Source: a virus
DNA: 22,750 nt
Virus record (IMG/VR): IMGVR_UViG_3300048912_000053
Coordinates: 1-22,750 of that record
Direction: 5' to 3' (one strand)
The notes below the pieces were generated by a model. It did not search any database. It saw only the letters and a program-made list of their open reading frames with translations, and had not been told where the DNA came from. Positions 14,657 to 22,750 of this stretch are shown here, in pieces. The stretch's first letter is position 1; each line of letters starts with the position of its first letter. The position numbers and the translations under genes are program-made.

Positions 14657-15799
14657 ATGGGCAAACCTTCCGCACCGCCGGCACCGGATTACACGGGCGC
14701 CGCAAAAGAGACGGCGGCCGGCAATCTGGATGCGGCGCGGCAGGCCACCGCAGCGAACCGCGTCAACACGTACACCCCATACGGGAACCTAGAGTACTTT
14801 CAAGACTCGAACAATCCCGACAAGTGGACGTCGATGGTGTCCCTGTCTCCTGACCAGCAAGCGCTGCTCGACCAGCAGAACAAGACAAGCCTGAACCTCG
14901 CCAATATGCAGGATCTGGCGACGACTCGCGTTCAGCGCGCATTCGGGAACGCACTGCCTACGACACTCAATGCGGACAAGATGCCCGCGCCGACCACGTT
15001 CGACCCGAGTCAATCGCAATCGCCGACGGCATTTAACGCCGGCCTGTATAGCGGAGCCACCACATACGACCCGCGATCAGCGAAGCTCGGGGCCGCCTAC
15101 GACCCGACCCAGGCCACGAACAACGCCGCAGACCTGATCAACGCACGCCTTCTGCCGCAGCAGCAGCGCGACCGGGCTGACCTAGAAAACCAGTTGGCAA
15201 ACCAGGGCATCATGCCGGGTTCGGAGGCGTACCAGCGAGCCGAGGACCAGCTTGGCCGCGACCAGAACGACGCGCGCCAGCAGGCGCAGTTACAAGGCAT
15301 CACGCTGGGCCAGCAACAGCAAGCGCAAACGTTTGACCAGATGGCGAACAATGCGCAACTCGGCGCGCAGTTGCAAGGCCAGCAGTACGGCCAGCAAACG
15401 AACAACGATGCCTTGTCTGCCGCACGGCAGGCGCAGCAGTATGGCCAGCAGTTGCAAAACCAGACGACGCGGGCGCAGTTGCAGGCGCAGCAGTTCGGCC
15501 AGCAGACACAGAACCGCATGAACCAGGCGCAGTTGCAGCAGCAGCAGTACACGCAGCAGGCGGCGAATCGAAACATTCCGATAAACGAGTTGAACGCGCT
15601 GCGCACCGGCTCGCAGGTGTCCAATCCGGCGTTTCAGCAGGCACCGCAGCAGGCGACGACTTCGGGCCCGGACATGATGGCGGCCGCGAATGGGATGAAC
15701 CAGTACAACATGGGCTTGTATAACTCGGGGGTCGCCAGCAGCAACAGTACTGTTGGCACAATCGGCAGCGTAGCGGCTGCTGTTGCGATGGCGATGTGA
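14657..15799 (+). CDS. Gln-rich ejection/internal virion protein (gp7 position)
   Basis: A 380-residue protein with the phage N-terminal pattern M-G-K-P-S-A-P-P-A-P-D-Y-T-G-A-A and N-R-V-N-T-Y-T-P-Y-G-N-L-E-Y. Residues about 237-307 contain four imperfect copies of a 16-19 residue unit (consensus A-Q-L-Q-x-Q-Q-Y/F-G-Q-Q-x-Q-N), an amphipathic Gln-rich helix. The end is Ala/Gly/Val-rich and hydrophobic (V-G-T-I-G-S-V-A-A-A-V-A-M-A-M). It is first of three genes in the order P22 uses for ejection proteins 7-20-16, so it is probably injected with DNA to help span the envelope. Ribosome site GGGGA at 14644-14648. Confidence 0.62.
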   Translation: MGKPSAPPAPDYTGAAKETAAGNLDAARQATAANRVNTYTPYGNLEYFQDSNNPDKWTSMVSLSPDQQALLDQQNKTSLNLANMQDLATTRVQRAFGNALPTTLNADKMPAPTTFDPSQSQSPTAFNAGLYSGATTYDPRSAKLGAAYDPTQATNNAADLINARLLPQQQRDRADLENQLANQGIMPGSEAYQRAEDQLGRDQNDARQQAQLQGITLGQQQQAQTFDQMANNAQLGAQLQGQQYGQQTNNDALSAARQAQQYGQQLQNQTTRAQLQAQQFGQQTQNRMNQAQLQQQQYTQQAANRNIPINELNALRTGSQVSNPAFQQAPQQATTSGPDMMAAANGMNQYNMGLYNSGVASSNSTVGTIGSVAAAVAMAM

Positions 15800-16476
15800 T
15801 GACGACCGCACTCGCATTCTCTGGCGGCAAGGATTCCTGGGCCTGTCTCTGGCTCAATCGGCACCGCCTTGCCGAAATCCGCGTGATCTGGATCAACACC
15901 GGGAAAAACTATCCGGAAATGCTCGACACGATCGCGCGCGCGAAAGCGATGTGCCCGAATTTTGTCGAGATTATCGTGGACCGTGATGGGCAGAACGAAT
16001 ATCACGGCATCCCGGCAGAGATCGTGCCGGTCGACTGGACGCGATTGGGGCAGGAAATTACTGGGCCCAAGCCGGTCATGATCCAGCCGTATTTAAATTG
16101 CTGTTACGAGAACATCGGCGCGAACCTGCAACGATATTGCAAAGAAAACGGCATCACCGAACTGATACGAGGGCAGCGCCTGGATGAGGCGCACAAGTCG
16201 ACCGCGCGCGATGGGACCGTCGTCGACGGGATCACCTATCGTCAGCCCATCGAGACTTGGAGTGCCGGGCAAGTACTGGATTTCGTGGCCGAGTTCATGG
16301 AACTGCCCGAGCATTTCCGGTTCGCGCATAGCTCGATGGATTGCTACGACTGCACGGCATTTGCAAAGGAGTCGCAGGACCGCATCGCACACATGAAAGC
16401 TGCCCACCCCATCCTGTTTCGTGAATACGAGGCCCGAAAGGCCAAACTTGATCAAGCACTTCGAGAGGCTATGTGA
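15799..16476 (+). CDS. PAPS reductase-like / PP-loop ATPase
   Basis: A 225-residue protein with the PP-loop S-G-G-K-D-S at residues 8-13, R-G-Q-R-L-D-E (124-130) and P-I-E-T-W (150-154), all in the order seen in PAPS reductase-family enzymes. C101-C102 and C182-x2-C185 are additional conserved-looking cysteines; the classical ECGLH ending of assimilatory reductases is absent. The family adenylates or reduces sulfur substrates, or modifies nucleic acids. ATG 15799 is preferred to GTG 15796 and overlaps the previous stop as TGATG. Placed between two ejection-protein genes, it is a late-expressed accessory enzyme of unknown substrate. Confidence 0.82.
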   Translation: MTTALAFSGGKDSWACLWLNRHRLAEIRVIWINTGKNYPEMLDTIARAKAMCPNFVEIIVDRDGQNEYHGIPAEIVPVDWTRLGQEITGPKPVMIQPYLNCCYENIGANLQRYCKENGITELIRGQRLDEAHKSTARDGTVVDGITYRQPIETWSAGQVLDFVAEFMELPEHFRFAHSSMDCYDCTAFAKESQDRIAHMKAAHPILFREYEARKAKLDQALREAM

Positions 16477-18128: not shown

Positions 18129-19576
18129 TGCCATTCGATCTCTCGACAGCGAAGCCGGTCACGTCCGGCAGGTTCGACCTTGCGACGGCCAAGCCAGTGG
18201 TTCCGGTCCAGCAAGATAGCCCCGGCATTCTTGACAGCGTAAAGCAGGGAGCCATCAATCTCGGGGCTGGCGCGATTCGCGGTGCTGGCTCGATCGGCGC
18301 AACCTTGCTGTGGCCGATCGACAAAGCCACGGACCTGATCATGGGCGACCGCGATCCGAACGTCGCGGGCCTCATCAGTGGCAAGCAGCCGATCAGCCGT
18401 AATGAACAGCGCCGCCGCGACATCGACGAAGGCTTAAGCATGCTCGTGGGCTCCGATCCAAACTCGCTACTGTACAAGACCGGTAAGCTCGGTGGCGAGG
18501 TAGCCGGAACCGCTGGCGCGGGCGGCCTGCTTGGAAATGGCGCGCGGTTGGCCGGCGCCTCACCGGAGCTGGTTGCATCACTCGCCTCAGGTGGCATGCG
18601 CACGGGTGGAGTTACCGGGCTGGCGAGTTCTGGCGTGCGCGCAGTTGGGGGTGCCACTACCGGCGCCGCGACGGCCGGCCTGATCAACCCGAATGATATG
18701 GGCGCGGGTGCGGTGGTCGGCGCGGCGCTGCCGGGCGTGGCGAAGGTTATGGGTGTGGCTGGCAAGGCGGTAGATGAGCGTGCCCGCAATCTGGCCGAGC
18801 AGCTGATGCAGAGCGCTATCAAGCCAACCATCAAGCAACGGCAAACCGGGGAAGCCGCCACGGCGGTCAACACGCTTCTCGACTATGGCATCAGCCCGAC
18901 TATGGCTGGCACCGAAAAGATTCGAGGTTTGGTTGATGCCTTGAACAACCAGATCTCCGACAAAATCGCGAACTCAAATGCCGTGGTCGACAAGAACGCA
19001 GTGCTGGGGCGCCTCCTCTCGGTGCAGCAGAAATTTGGAAATCAAGTCAGCCCGACTGCCGATCTGAACGCAATCCAGGGCGTAGCTGACGACTTCTCGG
19101 CCCATCCGAACTTCCCAGGCTTGACGATCCCGGTACAGGCGGCGCAAGACATGAAGCAGGCCACCTATCAGGTGCTCGCGAAGAAATACGGTCAAATGGG
19201 AAGTGCGGATGTAGAGGCGCAGAAGGCTTTGGCGCGCGGCTTGAAGGAAGAAATCGCGACAGCCGTACCGGAAGTGGCCGGCCTGAACGCCGAGGAATCG
19301 AGGCTGCTCAAGACGCTAAAAGTATCTGAGCGCCGCGCCCTGATGGAAGCAAACAAGAATCCTGGCGGCATATCTTTGCTCGCAAAAAACCCGATGACCT
19401 GGGCCTTGTTTATGGCTGATCGCAGTGCCGCGTTCAAGGCGCTGGCGGCCCGGATGGTGAACAGTGCCGGCGGCGCGGCAGGAAACACGGCCCCGGCTTT
19501 GGAGGCAGGGCTTAGTAATCCAGTCCTGCGCGGCGGCGCCGTGCAGCTTCCTGCCGCGCGCGACGGGACGAAGTAA
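18128..19576 (+). CDS. Probable DNA ejection protein (gp16 position)
   Basis: A 482-residue protein. It opens with a 13-residue-period duplication, F-D-L-S-T-A-K-P-V (3-11) and F-D-L-A-T-A-K-P-V (16-24). Residues about 115-195 are Gly/Ala-rich and weakly hydrophobic, as in membrane-active ejection proteins; the rest is helical. ATG 18128 overlaps the previous stop as TGATG with an AGAGG ribosome site. It is last of the late structural run before the regulatory island, as gene 16 is in P22. A membrane-penetrating role is inferred from composition and place. Its 3' end overlaps the antisense gene at 19512-19646. Confidence 0.63.
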   Translation: MPFDLSTAKPVTSGRFDLATAKPVVPVQQDSPGILDSVKQGAINLGAGAIRGAGSIGATLLWPIDKATDLIMGDRDPNVAGLISGKQPISRNEQRRRDIDEGLSMLVGSDPNSLLYKTGKLGGEVAGTAGAGGLLGNGARLAGASPELVASLASGGMRTGGVTGLASSGVRAVGGATTGAATAGLINPNDMGAGAVVGAALPGVAKVMGVAGKAVDERARNLAEQLMQSAIKPTIKQRQTGEAATAVNTLLDYGISPTMAGTEKIRGLVDALNNQISDKIANSNAVVDKNAVLGRLLSVQQKFGNQVSPTADLNAIQGVADDFSAHPNFPGLTIPVQAAQDMKQATYQVLAKKYGQMGSADVEAQKALARGLKEEIATAVPEVAGLNAEESRLLKTLKVSERRALMEANKNPGGISLLAKNPMTWALFMADRSAAFKALAARMVNSAGGAAGNTAPALEAGLSNPVLRGGAVQLPAARDGTK

Positions 19577-19646
19577 AGCCATGAATAAAGGCGGCAATGG
19601 CAAATACACCTAACTTGATCAATATGAACTCGACGTAATCGCTCAT
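19512..19646 (-). CDS. Small membrane protein (44 aa) coupled to the repressor gene
   Basis: This leftward ORF encodes 44 residues: M-S-D-Y-V-E-F, a transmembrane segment at about 7-24 ([18 protein letters not shown]), then a very basic tail ([14 protein letters not shown]). Its ATG overlaps the stop of the ribbon-helix-helix gene as ATGA, so the two form one leftward operon. It also runs 65 bp into the 3' end of the ejection gene on the other strand. P22 places the leftward superinfection-exclusion gene sieA beside mnt here; this peptide is far shorter than SieA, so only the position is comparable. Confidence 0.6.
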
Positions 19647-19933
19647 TTCAGCCCCATGGCTTTTCGTTTGACTTTAAGTGACTCGTCAATGGCTTTCTCT
19701 ACGACATCGGATTTTATTGCCTGGGCAATCATCTCAACCAAGATCGCTTGCATCTTTTCTGGCTCAGGAATCGGCAAAAGGCGGTGCTCAAGACTTGCCT
19801 CAAGTCGCGCGACGATCTCCGCGTTCATGGAGCGGTTGTTGGACTTTGCCAGTTCCGCGATCTTCGCTCGCATCCCCTCTGGGAGGCGAAGAACGAATTG
19901 TTCAGCAGACCGGCTTGGGGGCTTCGTTGACAT
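19643..19933 (-). CDS. Arc/Mnt-like ribbon-helix-helix repressor
   Basis: A 96-residue protein. The DNA-binding strand E-Q-F-V-L-R-L-P (11-18) is followed by helix [10 protein letters not shown] and helix [17 protein letters not shown], matching P22 Arc (Q-F-N-L-R-W-P; N-G-R-S-V-N-S-E-I). A C-terminal helical extension of about 45 residues may give oligomerisation, as in Mnt. The start at 19933 is required to keep the strand intact. There is no Shine-Dalgarno sequence, and the predicted promoter would begin transcription at or next to the ATG, suggesting a leaderless mRNA. Expected role: prophage-state repressor of the rightward antirepressor unit. Confidence 0.87.
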
Positions 19934-19939
19934 GGCGAG

Positions 19940-19968
19940 ACCATACTAGCCAAATGCTATGTTTTCAA
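19940..19968 (-). promoter_or_regulatory. Leftward promoter of the repressor gene
   Basis: On the minus strand, TTGAAA (19968-19963) and TATGGT (19945-19940) are separated by 17 bp; TTGAAA matches the -35 consensus in five of six bases. Seven bases beyond the -10 lies the A of the repressor ATG (19933). Both direct repeats of AATGCTATGT overlap this promoter. Confidence 0.52.
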
Positions 19969-19976
19969 TGCTATGT
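19953..19976. promoter_or_regulatory. Direct-repeat operator candidate between divergent repressors
   Basis: AATGCTATGT occurs at 19953-19962 and 19967-19976, centres 14 bp apart, about 1.3 helical turns. One copy lies in the leftward promoter spacer and the other overlaps its -35 and abuts the rightward -35. Ribbon-helix-helix dimers commonly bind such repeated half-sites. Confidence 0.5.
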
Positions 19977-19978
19977 AG

Positions 19979-20007
19979 TTGCGATCATCGCAAAGTGCGA
20001 GTATTCT
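19979..20007 (+). promoter_or_regulatory. Rightward promoter of the arc-like/antirepressor unit, with palindrome
   Basis: TTGCGA (19979-19984) and TATTCT (20002-20007) are 17 bp apart. The -35 is the left arm of a perfect 15-bp palindrome, TTGCGAT-C-ATCGCAA (19979-19993), a second operator candidate. Transcription would start near 20014, about 25 bases before the arc-like gene. Confidence 0.5.
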
Positions 20008-20038
20008 AAAGGCAGGCTCAACAGCAAAAGGAGAATGT

Positions 20039-20203
20039 ATGTCGACGGCACAGTTCCTCGTGCGCATGCCTATTGAGGTGCGCGACTGGGTAGCAACGGC
20101 GGCAAAGAAGGATGATCGATCGATGAATTGCCTCATCGTGATGATCTTGAAGCGGGCGATGGATGCCCAAAAAGGAAACGCCTCAACCGGTGCGAACGGC
20201 TGA
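20039..20203 (+). CDS. Arc-like ribbon-helix-helix protein (54 aa)
   Basis: A 54-residue protein, the same size as P22 Arc (53). The strand A-Q-F-L-V-R-M-P (4-11), then E-V-R-D-W-V-A-T-A-A, turn K-D-D-R-S-M-N and helix C-L-I-V-M-I-L-K-R-A-M reproduce the Arc fold pattern. AAGGAG at 20028-20033 lies five bases before the ATG; an earlier out-of-frame ATG at 20035 is ignored. It is first in the rightward unit, ahead of the antirepressor, as arc precedes ant in P22. It probably dampens its own promoter. Its stop codon lies inside the hairpin at 20177-20209. Confidence 0.86.
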   Translation: MSTAQFLVRMPIEVRDWVATAAKKDDRSMNCLIVMILKRAMDAQKGNASTGANG

Positions 20204-20209
20204 GGCGTT
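20169..20209 (-). terminator. Minus-strand intrinsic terminator at the end of the arc-like gene
   Basis: AACGCCTCA (20177-20185) pairs perfectly with TGAGGCGTT (20201-20209), followed inward by an A/C mismatch and CCG/CGG around a 7-base loop. Read on the minus strand, the stem is followed by TTTCCTTTTT (20178-20169). On the plus strand the tail is only GTTGGTTT, so termination should be much stronger leftward. Confidence 0.55.
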
Positions 20210-20237
20210 GGTTTGAAACCCGTATCTATAGGAATCA
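20169..20237 (-). ncRNA. Candidate antisense RNA (P22 sar-like position)
   Basis: On the minus strand, TTTATA (20272-20267) and TACGAT (20249-20244), 17 bp apart, would start transcription near 20237. The transcript would end at the minus-strand terminator whose stem is 20177-20209 and whose U-rich tail is 20178-20169. The predicted length is close to 70 nt, and it is antisense to the arc-like/antirepressor junction and to the leader-ORF ribosome site at 20230-20233. P22 sar occupies the equivalent junction and has a similar size. The promoter matches consensus at only four of six bases in each hexamer, so this is a prediction. Confidence 0.35.
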
Positions 20238-20239
20238 AC

Positions 20240-20293
20240 ATGAATCGTACCACAGTGACTACATCGTATAAACCTGCGGGAGGCCCGCCATGA
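20240..20293 (+). CDS. 17-codon leader ORF coupled to the antirepressor
   Basis: The ORF encodes MNRTTVTTSYKPAGGPP and its stop overlaps the antirepressor ATG as ATGA (20290-20293). AGGA at 20230-20233 lies six bases upstream of the ATG. Its last codons run over the hairpin that hides the antirepressor ribosome site, so translating it would open that hairpin. Ending in Pro-Pro-stop, a context known to slow termination, would hold a ribosome there. Too short to assign; its value is the arrangement. Confidence 0.42.
   Translation: MNRTTVTTSYKPAGGPP
20276..20288 (+). promoter_or_regulatory. Hairpin sequestering the antirepressor ribosome site
   Basis: GCGGG-AGG-CCCGC is a perfect 5-bp G/C stem with loop AGG. 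The ribosome site GGGAGG (20278-20283) is half in the stem and half in the loop, six bases before the ATG at 20290. Confidence 0.5.
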
Positions 20294-21156
20294 CCACACT
20301 CACGACGATTACCGCAGAGACGCTGCCGGCCATGACGTGGCAGCAGGCCCGCGTCATCACGACCGAGCTGCTAGCGAAAATGTATGCAGCGGACGACAAG
20401 CAGATCCACGATAATTTCCAGAACAACCAAACACGCTTCGTGGCAGGCAAGCATTACTTCCGGCTGGAAGGCGCTGCGCTCAAAGAGTTCAAGAGCTACC
20501 CCGAATCTGTCGGGGTAGTTCAGAAACATGCGCGCCACCTGATCCTCTGGACCGAGCGCGGCGCCGCGCGCCACGCGAAGATGCTCGACACCGAGGCGGC
20601 CTGGGAAGTATTCGAGAAGCTGGAGGACTGCTATTTCCGCACGCAGGAAGCGGTCCGCAGTTTCGTGAAGAACCCGGGCGATGTCCTGACAATCGAGCAA
20701 GCCGACCTGCTGCGCAGCGCGATGACGACGCACTGCGCGCGGCTACCGAAGAGCCAGCAGGGTCCGTTCATGGTCAAGGGCTGGTCGAAGCTCAAGGCGC
20801 ACTTCAAGGTGAGCTATCGCCTGATTCCACAGGAGCATTTGACCGAGGCGCTGTCGATTATCACGAGGCACGCGGCAGACTGGGAAGTGGTTGATGGATC
20901 GACCGCTGTCGCCGCATCCACGACACGCGAAGATATTCTTGCAGACGCCCTTTCGCATGGCCGCTGGATCATGACCGGGCGTGATGGCCGGCTAATCCTG
21001 ACTCCGCTCGCGAACGAAGCGTTCGTTACGAGCCCGGCAGATTTGCCAGAAATGCTTGCTGAGCCCGCGGCGATCCCGATCCGAAGCCTTCCTGGAATTA
21101 TCGAGGCTGCGACCGAGCGTCTTTCGCGCTGGATGGCAAATAACCTGCCGAAATAG
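20290..21156 (+). CDS. ORF6N-type phage antirepressor
   Basis: A 288-residue protein. Residues about 17-110 form an ORF6N domain: R-V-I-T-T-E-L-L-A-K-M-Y, then N-F-Q-N-N-Q-T-R-F and G-K-H-Y-F-R-L-E-G, then L-W-T-E-R-G-A-A-R-H-A-K-M-L-D-T and A-W-E-V-F-E-K-L-E-D. Residues about 140-195 (F-M-V-K-G-W-S-K-L-K-A-H-F-K-V-S-Y-R-L-I-P) look like an ORF6C-type partner domain. Such proteins antagonise phage repressors; P22 Ant inactivates C2. It is the second main gene of the arc-like unit, directly before the tailspike, as ant is in P22. Start is ATG 20290 with a strong but hairpin-masked GGGAGG. A terminator follows. Confidence 0.83.
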   Translation: MTTLTTITAETLPAMTWQQARVITTELLAKMYAADDKQIHDNFQNNQTRFVAGKHYFRLEGAALKEFKSYPESVGVVQKHARHLILWTERGAARHAKMLDTEAAWEVFEKLEDCYFRTQEAVRSFVKNPGDVLTIEQADLLRSAMTTHCARLPKSQQGPFMVKGWSKLKAHFKVSYRLIPQEHLTEALSIITRHAADWEVVDGSTAVAASTTREDILADALSHGRWIMTGRDGRLILTPLANEAFVTSPADLPEMLAEPAAIPIRSLPGIIEAATERLSRWMANNLPK

Positions 21157-21170
21157 TTAGAAATACGGCG

Positions 21171-21197
21171 CCGCCTCGGGCAACTGAGGCGGTTTTT
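21171..21197 (+). terminator. Intrinsic terminator after the antirepressor
   Basis: CCGCCTC (21171-21177) pairs with GAGGCGG (21186-21192), followed by TTTTT (21193-21197). It lies 14 bases after the antirepressor stop and separates the regulatory unit from the tailspike gene. The remaining 98 bases to the tailspike ATG contain a short TCCC-TGTGAA-GGGA hairpin (21255-21268) and an AGCATGTA near 21217, but no promoter I can call with confidence. Confidence 0.75.
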
Positions 21198-21295
21198 ACG
21201 TGTCCCGGAGAAAGAAGCATGTAATAATTTTTCCAGCAGCAACGTAGTCATTTATCCCTGTGAAGGGACTTGTGTAAGACAGACGAGAGCATATC

Positions 21296-22750
21296 ATGCC
21301 AAGAAACGGTAGCGGCACGTACTCCCCTCCAGCTGGTCAGCCGGTTGTATCCGGTACGGTCATCAGCGCTTCAGTTTTCAACACCCTTGTGGCCGACCTC
21401 GGCACCGAGTTCACCCGGTCTCTTGCCACGGATGGCCAAACCACGATGGTGGCGAACCTGCCGATGGGCGGCTTCAAGATTGTCAATGTGGCCCCCGGTA
21501 CCGTTGCCACCGACGCGGTGCAGCTTGGCCAGCTTACGGCATCCTCTGGATCATCTAAATTCGGATTCATCCAGGCTGGCACCGGGGCAACTCCCCGAAC
21601 TGGCGAGGCCAAACTACGCGACATCATCAGCGTGCGCGACTTCACCGGCGACACGGTTGACGGCGCGACGTCCAATCAAGCTGGGATCGTTGCAGCCGTG
21701 GCGGCTGCGATAGCGGCCGGGGCTGACCTGTACTGGCCGGCCGGGACGTATGTCTCAACGGCGACAATTCCGGGCTTCCATAGTGTTCGCCACATTGGGC
21801 CCGGCGTGATCAAGCGCGGCAGCGATCTTTTCTACGTCGCGCCGACCGGCAGCCAAACGAACAATCTCTATATCTCACCCTCGGGTACGGGCGACGGTTT
21901 GAGTGCTTCGGAACCTAGCTCCGAAGCGGGCGTATTCGCGGCACTGCTCAACTACGGCCCTGTGTTGGACGGCCAATGGAACGTGCGTCTTGCGGCCGGC
22001 ACTTACCCGGGCGGTGTCACGATGACCGGCCTGCGCAGCCGCAATTACCTGGCGTTTTATGGCCCGAACGTTGGCGGCCATCCGAATGTGCCGACCGCGA
22101 TCATCGACGGAACCAGCAGTTCTGCGGATCACGGCTGGTACTTCCAGACGAACATGACCTTGAAAGTCCAGGACATCAAGTTTCAGAACTGGACGACGCA
22201 ATCGTATTCGCACGGCATCACCGTACTCGAAGCATCGAAGCTGTACACGGTGAACGTCCACACCGCCAACTGCTCCTATGGCGGCGTCGACATCGAGGAC
22301 CGGTCGCAACTCATCCTGTCGGGCGGTATCCACAACAACGCCACGTATTGCATCCGCGCCACCTACCATTGCACCGTGTCGATCGGCTACAACGGCGCCA
22401 CGGCTGGCCGGCCGCAAATCACCGGCGCCGTCGCTGGCGGCTCCGGCATCCTGCTCAGCGACTATTCGCAGGGCCACATCGACTACTGCGACATCTACGG
22501 CTGCGGCGGCTCGGGCGGGGCGGTCGGCCTGGTGAATATGTCCAGGGTGGATTTGAATTACAACGTCTTCGGTGCCGGCACACCGAACTACTACAACGTC
22601 AGTTGCTCGATCGGCTCGACCTACATCGACAACGTCAGCAACACGTTCAACGCGGCGACCGTAAAAAGCATAGTGCTGCTGGGTTTCTCGCTCGACTGGT
22701 CCAGCAATGGCAACGTCTTCTACGACCAGGCCAGCGGGAAAATGCGTATT
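21296..22750 (+). CDS. Tailspike / tail fibre protein with beta-helix (3' truncated)
   Basis: The frame is open from the ATG at 21296 to the right edge (485 codons visible, no stop). The N-terminus (M-P-R-N-G-S-G-T-Y-S-P-P-A-G-Q-P-V-V-S-G-T) and the Q-T-T-M-V-A-N-L-P-M-G-G-F-K-I block are typical virion-binding modules of podoviral tail fibres. After about residue 100 the pattern changes to Gly/Asn/Thr-rich, short beta-strand repeats (I-I-D-G-T-S-S-S; V-D-I-E-D-R-S-Q-L-I-L-S-G-G-I-H-N-N-A-T), as in right-handed parallel beta-helix spikes that bind or cut surface polysaccharide. GAGAG at 21285-21289 is the ribosome site. Receptor and enzymatic activity cannot be judged from the part seen. Confidence 0.83.
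   Translation, partial: MPRNGSGTYSPPAGQPVVSGTVISASVFNTLVADLGTEFTRSLATDGQTTMVANLPMGGFKIVNVAPGTVATDAVQLGQLTASSGSSKFGFIQAGTGATPRTGEAKLRDIISVRDFTGDTVDGATSNQAGIVAAVAAAIAAGADLYWPAGTYVSTATIPGFHSVRHIGPGVIKRGSDLFYVAPTGSQTNNLYISPSGTGDGLSASEPSSEAGVFAALLNYGPVLDGQWNVRLAAGTYPGGVTMTGLRSRNYLAFYGPNVGGHPNVPTAIIDGTSSSADHGWYFQTNMTLKVQDIKFQNWTTQSYSHGITVLEASKLYTVNVHTANCSYGGVDIEDRSQLILSGGIHNNATYCIRATYHCTVSIGYNGATAGRPQITGAVAGGSGILLSDYSQGHIDYCDIYGCGGSGGAVGLVNMSRVDLNYNVFGAGTPNYYNVSCSIGSTYIDNVSNTFNAATVKSIVLLGFSLDWSSNGNVFYDQASGKMRI

Follow-up and report, generated by a model that had tools for sequence, protein, structure and literature searches.

Does the antisense RNA predicted at this locus control an antirepressor gene directly, as in phage P22, or does it act through a short leader ORF placed before that gene? 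The window (the whole stretch of virus DNA analysed here, a record of 22750 bases) contains terminase, portal, head and tail genes and, from 21296, a tailspike-like gene. An immI block separates the tailspike-like gene from a virion-region gene that ends at 19576; by homology it is a P22-type module of an mnt-like gene on the minus strand and arc-like and ORF6N antirepressor genes on the plus strand. Blocks of this kind before the tailspike have been discussed as 'ant morons' (PMC2629481). In this module the target of sar is probably a 17-codon leader ORF and not ant itself, with Ant being made through coupling to the leader.

The immunity module

A near-identity DNA search in phages gave no match for the window. 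The nearest relative of the module is a phage locus, L119, with 78% DNA identity over 325 bp, from the mnt start to leader codon 5. The features of the module are as follows.

19643..19933, minus strand: mnt-like ribbon-helix-helix repressor, 96 aa (Pfam Arc PF03869, E 9.5e-17), divergent from arc, like P22
19953..19993, no strand: candidate Arc/Mnt operator region; repeats found by search, almost fully conserved in L119
20039..20203, plus strand: arc-like ribbon-helix-helix repressor, 54 aa (Pfam Arc, E 1.9e-9)
About 20169..20239, minus strand: sar-like antisense RNA, predicted, ~68-71 nt (covariance model R1 and two-hairpin fold)
20169..20209, minus strand: intrinsic terminator of the antisense RNA, 13-pair stem (20209-20177), then UCCUUUUU (U-rich tail)
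20230..20233, plus strand: leader Shine-Dalgarno (SD) sequence AGGA, inside the antisense-covered stretch; sequence and start box common to L119
20240..20293, plus strand: 17-codon leader ORF, MNRTTVTTSYKPAGGPP; its TGA (20291-20293) overlaps the ant ATG at 20290 (ATGA)
20244..20272, minus strand: Psar-like promoter, TTTATA (20272-20267), 17-nt spacer, TACGAT (20249-20244); motif and position match 41 modules
20276..20288, plus strand: hairpin GCGGG-AGG-CCCGC, GCGGGAGGCCCGC, over the ant SD (-7.8 kcal/mol; role doubtful)
20290..21156, plus strand: ant, ORF6N antirepressor, 288 aa (Pfam ORF6N, E 6.6e-18; PHROG anti-repressor, 2.6e-49)

Between mnt and arc there is a direct repeat, AATGCTATGT, at 19953 and 19967 (14 bp apart), and an inverted repeat, TTGCGAT-ATCGCAA, at 19979-19993. 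These are likely to be operators and promoters for Arc and Mnt, which, by analogy with P22, would regulate the divergent transcription of arc-leader-ant and of mnt. Elsewhere in the window, within the structural block, a phosphoadenosine phosphosulfate reductase-like gene (15796-16473; PHROG 424, E 3.8e-18) is an apparent auxiliary metabolic gene.

The antisense RNA and its promoter

An initial sequence-only reading had placed a terminator with a U-rich tail on the minus strand, and this is present at 20209-20169, the single terminator-like site in 19900-20400 by terminator scan (0.3 expected). As that reading implied, its stem is conserved by compensatory change: in an alignment of 13 sequences pairing is kept in 98% of pair cells, with double changes at 9 of the 13 pairs, and terminator covariation is 0.706 versus 0.295 when shuffled. 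Divergent ribbon-helix-helix modules were gathered through relatives of mnt and ant. Of the 171 repressor genes tested in them, 66 are followed by a minus-strand terminator, versus 8.4% of random positions; both members of each pair were included, so at most about half of the genes could be arcs.

The predicted RNA consists of a 5′ stem-loop containing the anti-SD and then the 3′ terminator hairpin. The 71-nt RNA 20239-20169 has a folding energy of -28.6 kcal/mol (z -5.9), and P22 sar folds alike, a 5′ stem-loop being followed by a 13-14 bp terminator hairpin (z -5.3); folding gives similar two-hairpin forms for the RNAs of ten relatives. When covariance model R1, built from 12 relatives with the window left out, was searched against the window, its best match was 20242-20170 on the minus strand (40.8 bits, E 2.7e-6; next best E 0.44). 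Together with the terminator covariation and the conserved promoter place, this bears out the prediction of an antisense RNA of ~70 nt. The comparative evidence strongly supports a true relationship between this predicted RNA and P22 sar; the RNA itself is a well-supported prediction. The Rfam sar model (RF00262) gave no match in the window up to E 10, a point of difference from P22, the only one of five sources searched that the model matches. A minus-strand match to ctRNA_pGA1 (Rfam; 23 bits against a gathering threshold of 45, E 0.09) was dismissed as a generic hairpin match.

The promoter proposed for this RNA at 20244-20272 is likewise supported by comparison. Its -10 is extended (TGG-TACGAT, with TG ahead of the -10). 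Of 41 modules, 73% have a minus-strand extended -10 within codons 2-5 of their first ORF, versus 5-17% in control windows, and in the window this motif, TGGTACGAT, is found at leader ATG+4 with a score of 12.0, the ant start scoring 8.0, which is background. By sigma-70 scan the candidate falls below threshold (8/12); P22 Psar is likewise weak by eye (GTGTTA-17-TATACT). Antirepressors of different families have common N-termini, MNNTT or MNNST (for example at L226, L005, L043, and L003), apparently because the -10 of the antisense promoter is written in those codons. In P1, an annotated antisense promoter, PaskilA, lies within the first codons of kilA (L250 1916-1952; NC_005856 49915-49951), a Psar-like layout.

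Psar would fire head-on at the arc-leader-ant transcript, and sar could act mainly on transcription, with convergent transcription or pairing-induced premature termination lowering ant mRNA and leader translation only protecting the message. In the P1 record icd is apparently required for ant expression, the step not being fixed, which would suit this mode of action. However, what the modules conserve is that the antisense RNA covers the first SD and start codon, as expected for a translational block, and a mainly transcriptional role is considered improbable.

The leader ORF and translation of ant

In P22, by annotated coordinates, the arc stop is at 15022, sar at 15021-15090 on the minus strand, the ant ATG at 15091, and Psar at 15097-15125; the window counterparts are the arc stop at 20203, the antisense RNA at 20169-20239 on the minus strand, and the leader ATG at 20240. 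The antisense RNA therefore lies between the arc stop and the next start codon, the P22 sar position that the sequence-only reading had assigned to it. The window resembles P22 immI in gene order, divergent repressors, a minus-strand RNA of ~70 nt ending at the arc stop, the two-hairpin fold, a promoter in the first codons of the covered ORF, and the placing of the block ahead of the tailspike gene. It differs in the covered ORF, which is ant in P22 and the 17-codon leader here. The place of the P22 ant AUG is taken by the leader AUG (20240), not by the ant AUG (20290): the leader start is 31 nt past the terminator hairpin and the ant start 81 nt, and the first start codons of relatives are mostly at 25-41 nt. 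Unlike in P22, the ant SD (20278-20283) is outside 20169-20239, and the SD covered by the antisense RNA is that of the leader; complementarity of sar to the ribosome binding site of the antirepressor itself, a P22 trait, is absent in the window. The coordinates thus agree with the proposal of a 17-codon leader ORF whose ribosome site the predicted antisense RNA covers, and the sar-like RNA would target this ORF instead of ant.

The leader ends in an ATGA overlap with the ant start, as expected for translational coupling. An ATG-initiated ORF with an SD ending exactly at the ant overlap arises in 3.0% of shuffles. It is probable, from the overlap and from the analogous systems described below, that Ant is made only when ribosomes finish the leader, although the strong SD in front of ant, GGGAGG, could also let ribosomes start there without the leader.

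A lock on that SD had been proposed in the GCGGG-AGG-CCCGC hairpin. The sequence is present, but its role as a lock is not above the level of shuffles: 20 of 200 shuffles fold as stably as 20276-20288, when the flanks are shuffled, a perfect stem of 5 bp or more that sequesters the SD still forms in 4.4% of cases, and the ant SD has a predicted unpaired probability of 0.51, not low beside a shuffle mean of 0.33. Conservation of the hairpin among leader-type relatives was rejected, there being local SD stems in some and a common structure in none. A masking role is therefore doubtful, not being supported by the predicted folds beyond base composition and chance; leader-ant coupling needs only the ATGA overlap.

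Taken in order, Psar in the first leader codons would give an RNA of ~68-71 nt, strongly supported by comparison, with its terminator overlapping the arc stop. Given its complementarity and the example of P22 sar, this RNA would pair with the arc-leader mRNA over the leader SD and block initiation. Ribosomes that finish the leader would restart at the AUGA and be the chief source of Ant, as suggested by the overlap, by the relatives, and by P1 icd-ant1 and Gifsy-1 orf45-anrP, so that sar would silence Ant indirectly, through the leader. Initiation without the leader may be reduced by the small hairpin, which the model does not require.

An effect of opposite sign can also be envisaged, in which the sar-covered stretch (GGCG at 20204 and CCCGUA near 20219) pairs with the ant SD region and sar binding would free ant, like IsrK on orf45-anrP. 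The minimum free energy fold of 20204-20330 contains such long-range pairing, and IsrK is an activating precedent (PMC4825925). This fold is, however, less stable than shuffles (z +1.05), and position and architecture agree with P22 sar, which is a repressor; activation by sar is very improbable.

Phage precedents, relatives and the origin of the leader

In CopA/tap/repA of the IncFII plasmid R1, an antisense RNA stops translation of a leader peptide that is coupled to the downstream gene. The analogy drawn with this system is apt in its logic, but R1 concerns replication control, with genes and an RNA unrelated to those of the window, and closer precedents exist in phages P1/P7 and Gifsy-1. 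In P1, icd (48470-48691) and ant1 (48688-49731) overlap by four bases (48688-48691), and C4 target sites lie before icd. The c4-icd-ant system of P1/P7 (C4, RF01695) is similar in that an antisense RNA blocks a leader ORF, icd, with a four-base overlap between leader and antirepressor. It is dissimilar in that C4 comes from a same-strand upstream transcript, not from an opposite-strand promoter, that icd encodes an active protein of 73 aa, and that Arc and Mnt are lacking. Rfam search found no C4 RNA in 19500-21300 of the window, which works like c4-icd-ant but is not a member.

In Gifsy-1, the stop codon of orf45 overlaps the start codon of anrP (AUGA). Synthesis of AnrP depends on orf45 being translated and is cut by start and early-stop mutations of orf45 (PMC4825925). 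AnrP is 66% identical to the window Ant over the N-terminal domain, so the two systems have homologous antirepressors, each preceded by a short ORF that overlaps its start codon by AUGA. Unlike the sar-like RNA, IsrK is an activating, same-strand RNA, and Gifsy-1 has no sar, arc, or mnt. No isrK was matched in the window by Rfam search, whereas a relative of Ant without arc/mnt has IsrK and C4 RNAs upstream (L006 2754-2952; Rfam). Two antisense systems are therefore found with one family of antirepressors.

The statement that no phage antirepressor was known with this arrangement does not hold, as P1 icd/ant1 and Gifsy-1 orf45/anrP both use leader coupling with the same overlap. Leader coupling (P1/P7, Gifsy-1) and the antisense element (P22) are each already known. 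A P22-type sar combined with a coupled leader, recurring with different antirepressors, was not found in the open-access literature searched, most subscription journals being outside this coverage; the union and its recurrence seem unreported.

In most modules, as in P22, the antisense-covered ORF is the antirepressor itself, and the domains KilAC, Rha, Bro-N, KilA-N, AntA, and ORF6N are among the first ORFs of 31 modules. That an overlapping leader occurs in all relatives of the window Ant was rejected (only 6 of 43). L119 has at the leader place a 67-codon ORF with an ATGA overlap with an AntA antirepressor. Other relatives have the following small ORFs.

L120/L121: 64-codon ORF before ORF6N; ATGA; GGAGG ribosome site
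L123/L125: 88-codon ORF before Rha with KilAC; TGATG; GGAGG ribosome site
L152: 85-codon ORF before KilA-N; TGATG; GGAGG ribosome site
L129: 119-codon ORF before AntA; ATGA; antirepressor without clear SD
L203-L206: same small ORF as L123/L152; TGATG junction

Among L120/L121, L123/L125, L152, and L129, a GGAGG ribosome site with an ATGA or TGATG junction is thus found in all except L129 (ATGA, without clear SD). Searches with the relatives' small leader ORFs found no Pfam family and, in PHROGs, a single weak match of unknown function. On this comparison, a mini-gene between antisense RNA and antirepressor has arisen repeatedly, and the window leader would have originated either from such an ORF by shortening or at a recombination junction. 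Conservation of the leader ORF is only partly borne out: the start box ATCTATAGGAATCAAyATGAA is common to the window and L119, but the 17-codon leader itself is seen only in the window and one identical contig. Exact start-box matches in viral contigs gave the same locus only in this twin contig and L119, the other 12 being unrelated.

Since most sar-type modules cover the antirepressor itself, the leader might be a remnant from a recombination event. A sar/start-box segment would have been joined to a foreign ant, the leader being an accident of frame, and ant would use its own SD under the control of Arc and Mnt only. Within the start box, at leader codon 5, homology to L119 is lost abruptly, which shows a mosaic joint; relatives of the Ant N-terminus are mostly from phages with C4/IsrK-type control; and the GGGAGG of ant is strong and not strongly masked. 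Against this, the leader, which is out of frame with ant, terminates precisely at the ATGA junction (3.0% of shuffles), longer ORFs with a like overlap persist in several other lineages, and Psar and the terminator are still intact. A leader without function is therefore unlikely, and sar control through the leader is the preferred reading.

Because whichever ORF comes next has the antisense promoter and anti-SD within its opening codons, phages may repeatedly place a small ORF there. It is possible, although we hold this only tentatively, that such ORFs are a recurrent 'adapter', small, replaceable, and ATGA/TGATG-coupled to interchangeable antirepressors (ORF6N, AntA, Rha, KilA-N), of which the window would be the minimal, 17-codon form. 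If so, sar control would survive antirepressor swapping. The sar RNA has so far been a P22 special case, and the comparison shows a broad, structurally conserved class before several antirepressor families, with a recurring sub-form in which the coupled short ORF unites the classical P22 sar and P1 c4-icd-ant designs. The comparison supplies a covariance model, and the module a small construct open to testing, for asking how antisense control outlasts antirepressor gene exchange.

The phage contig that contains L119 also has, on the opposite strand, a further ORF partly related to the 67-aa leader ORF (L246 954-1169), adjoining a helix-turn-helix (HTH) repressor-like ORF. The small leader protein may therefore be functional in its own right.
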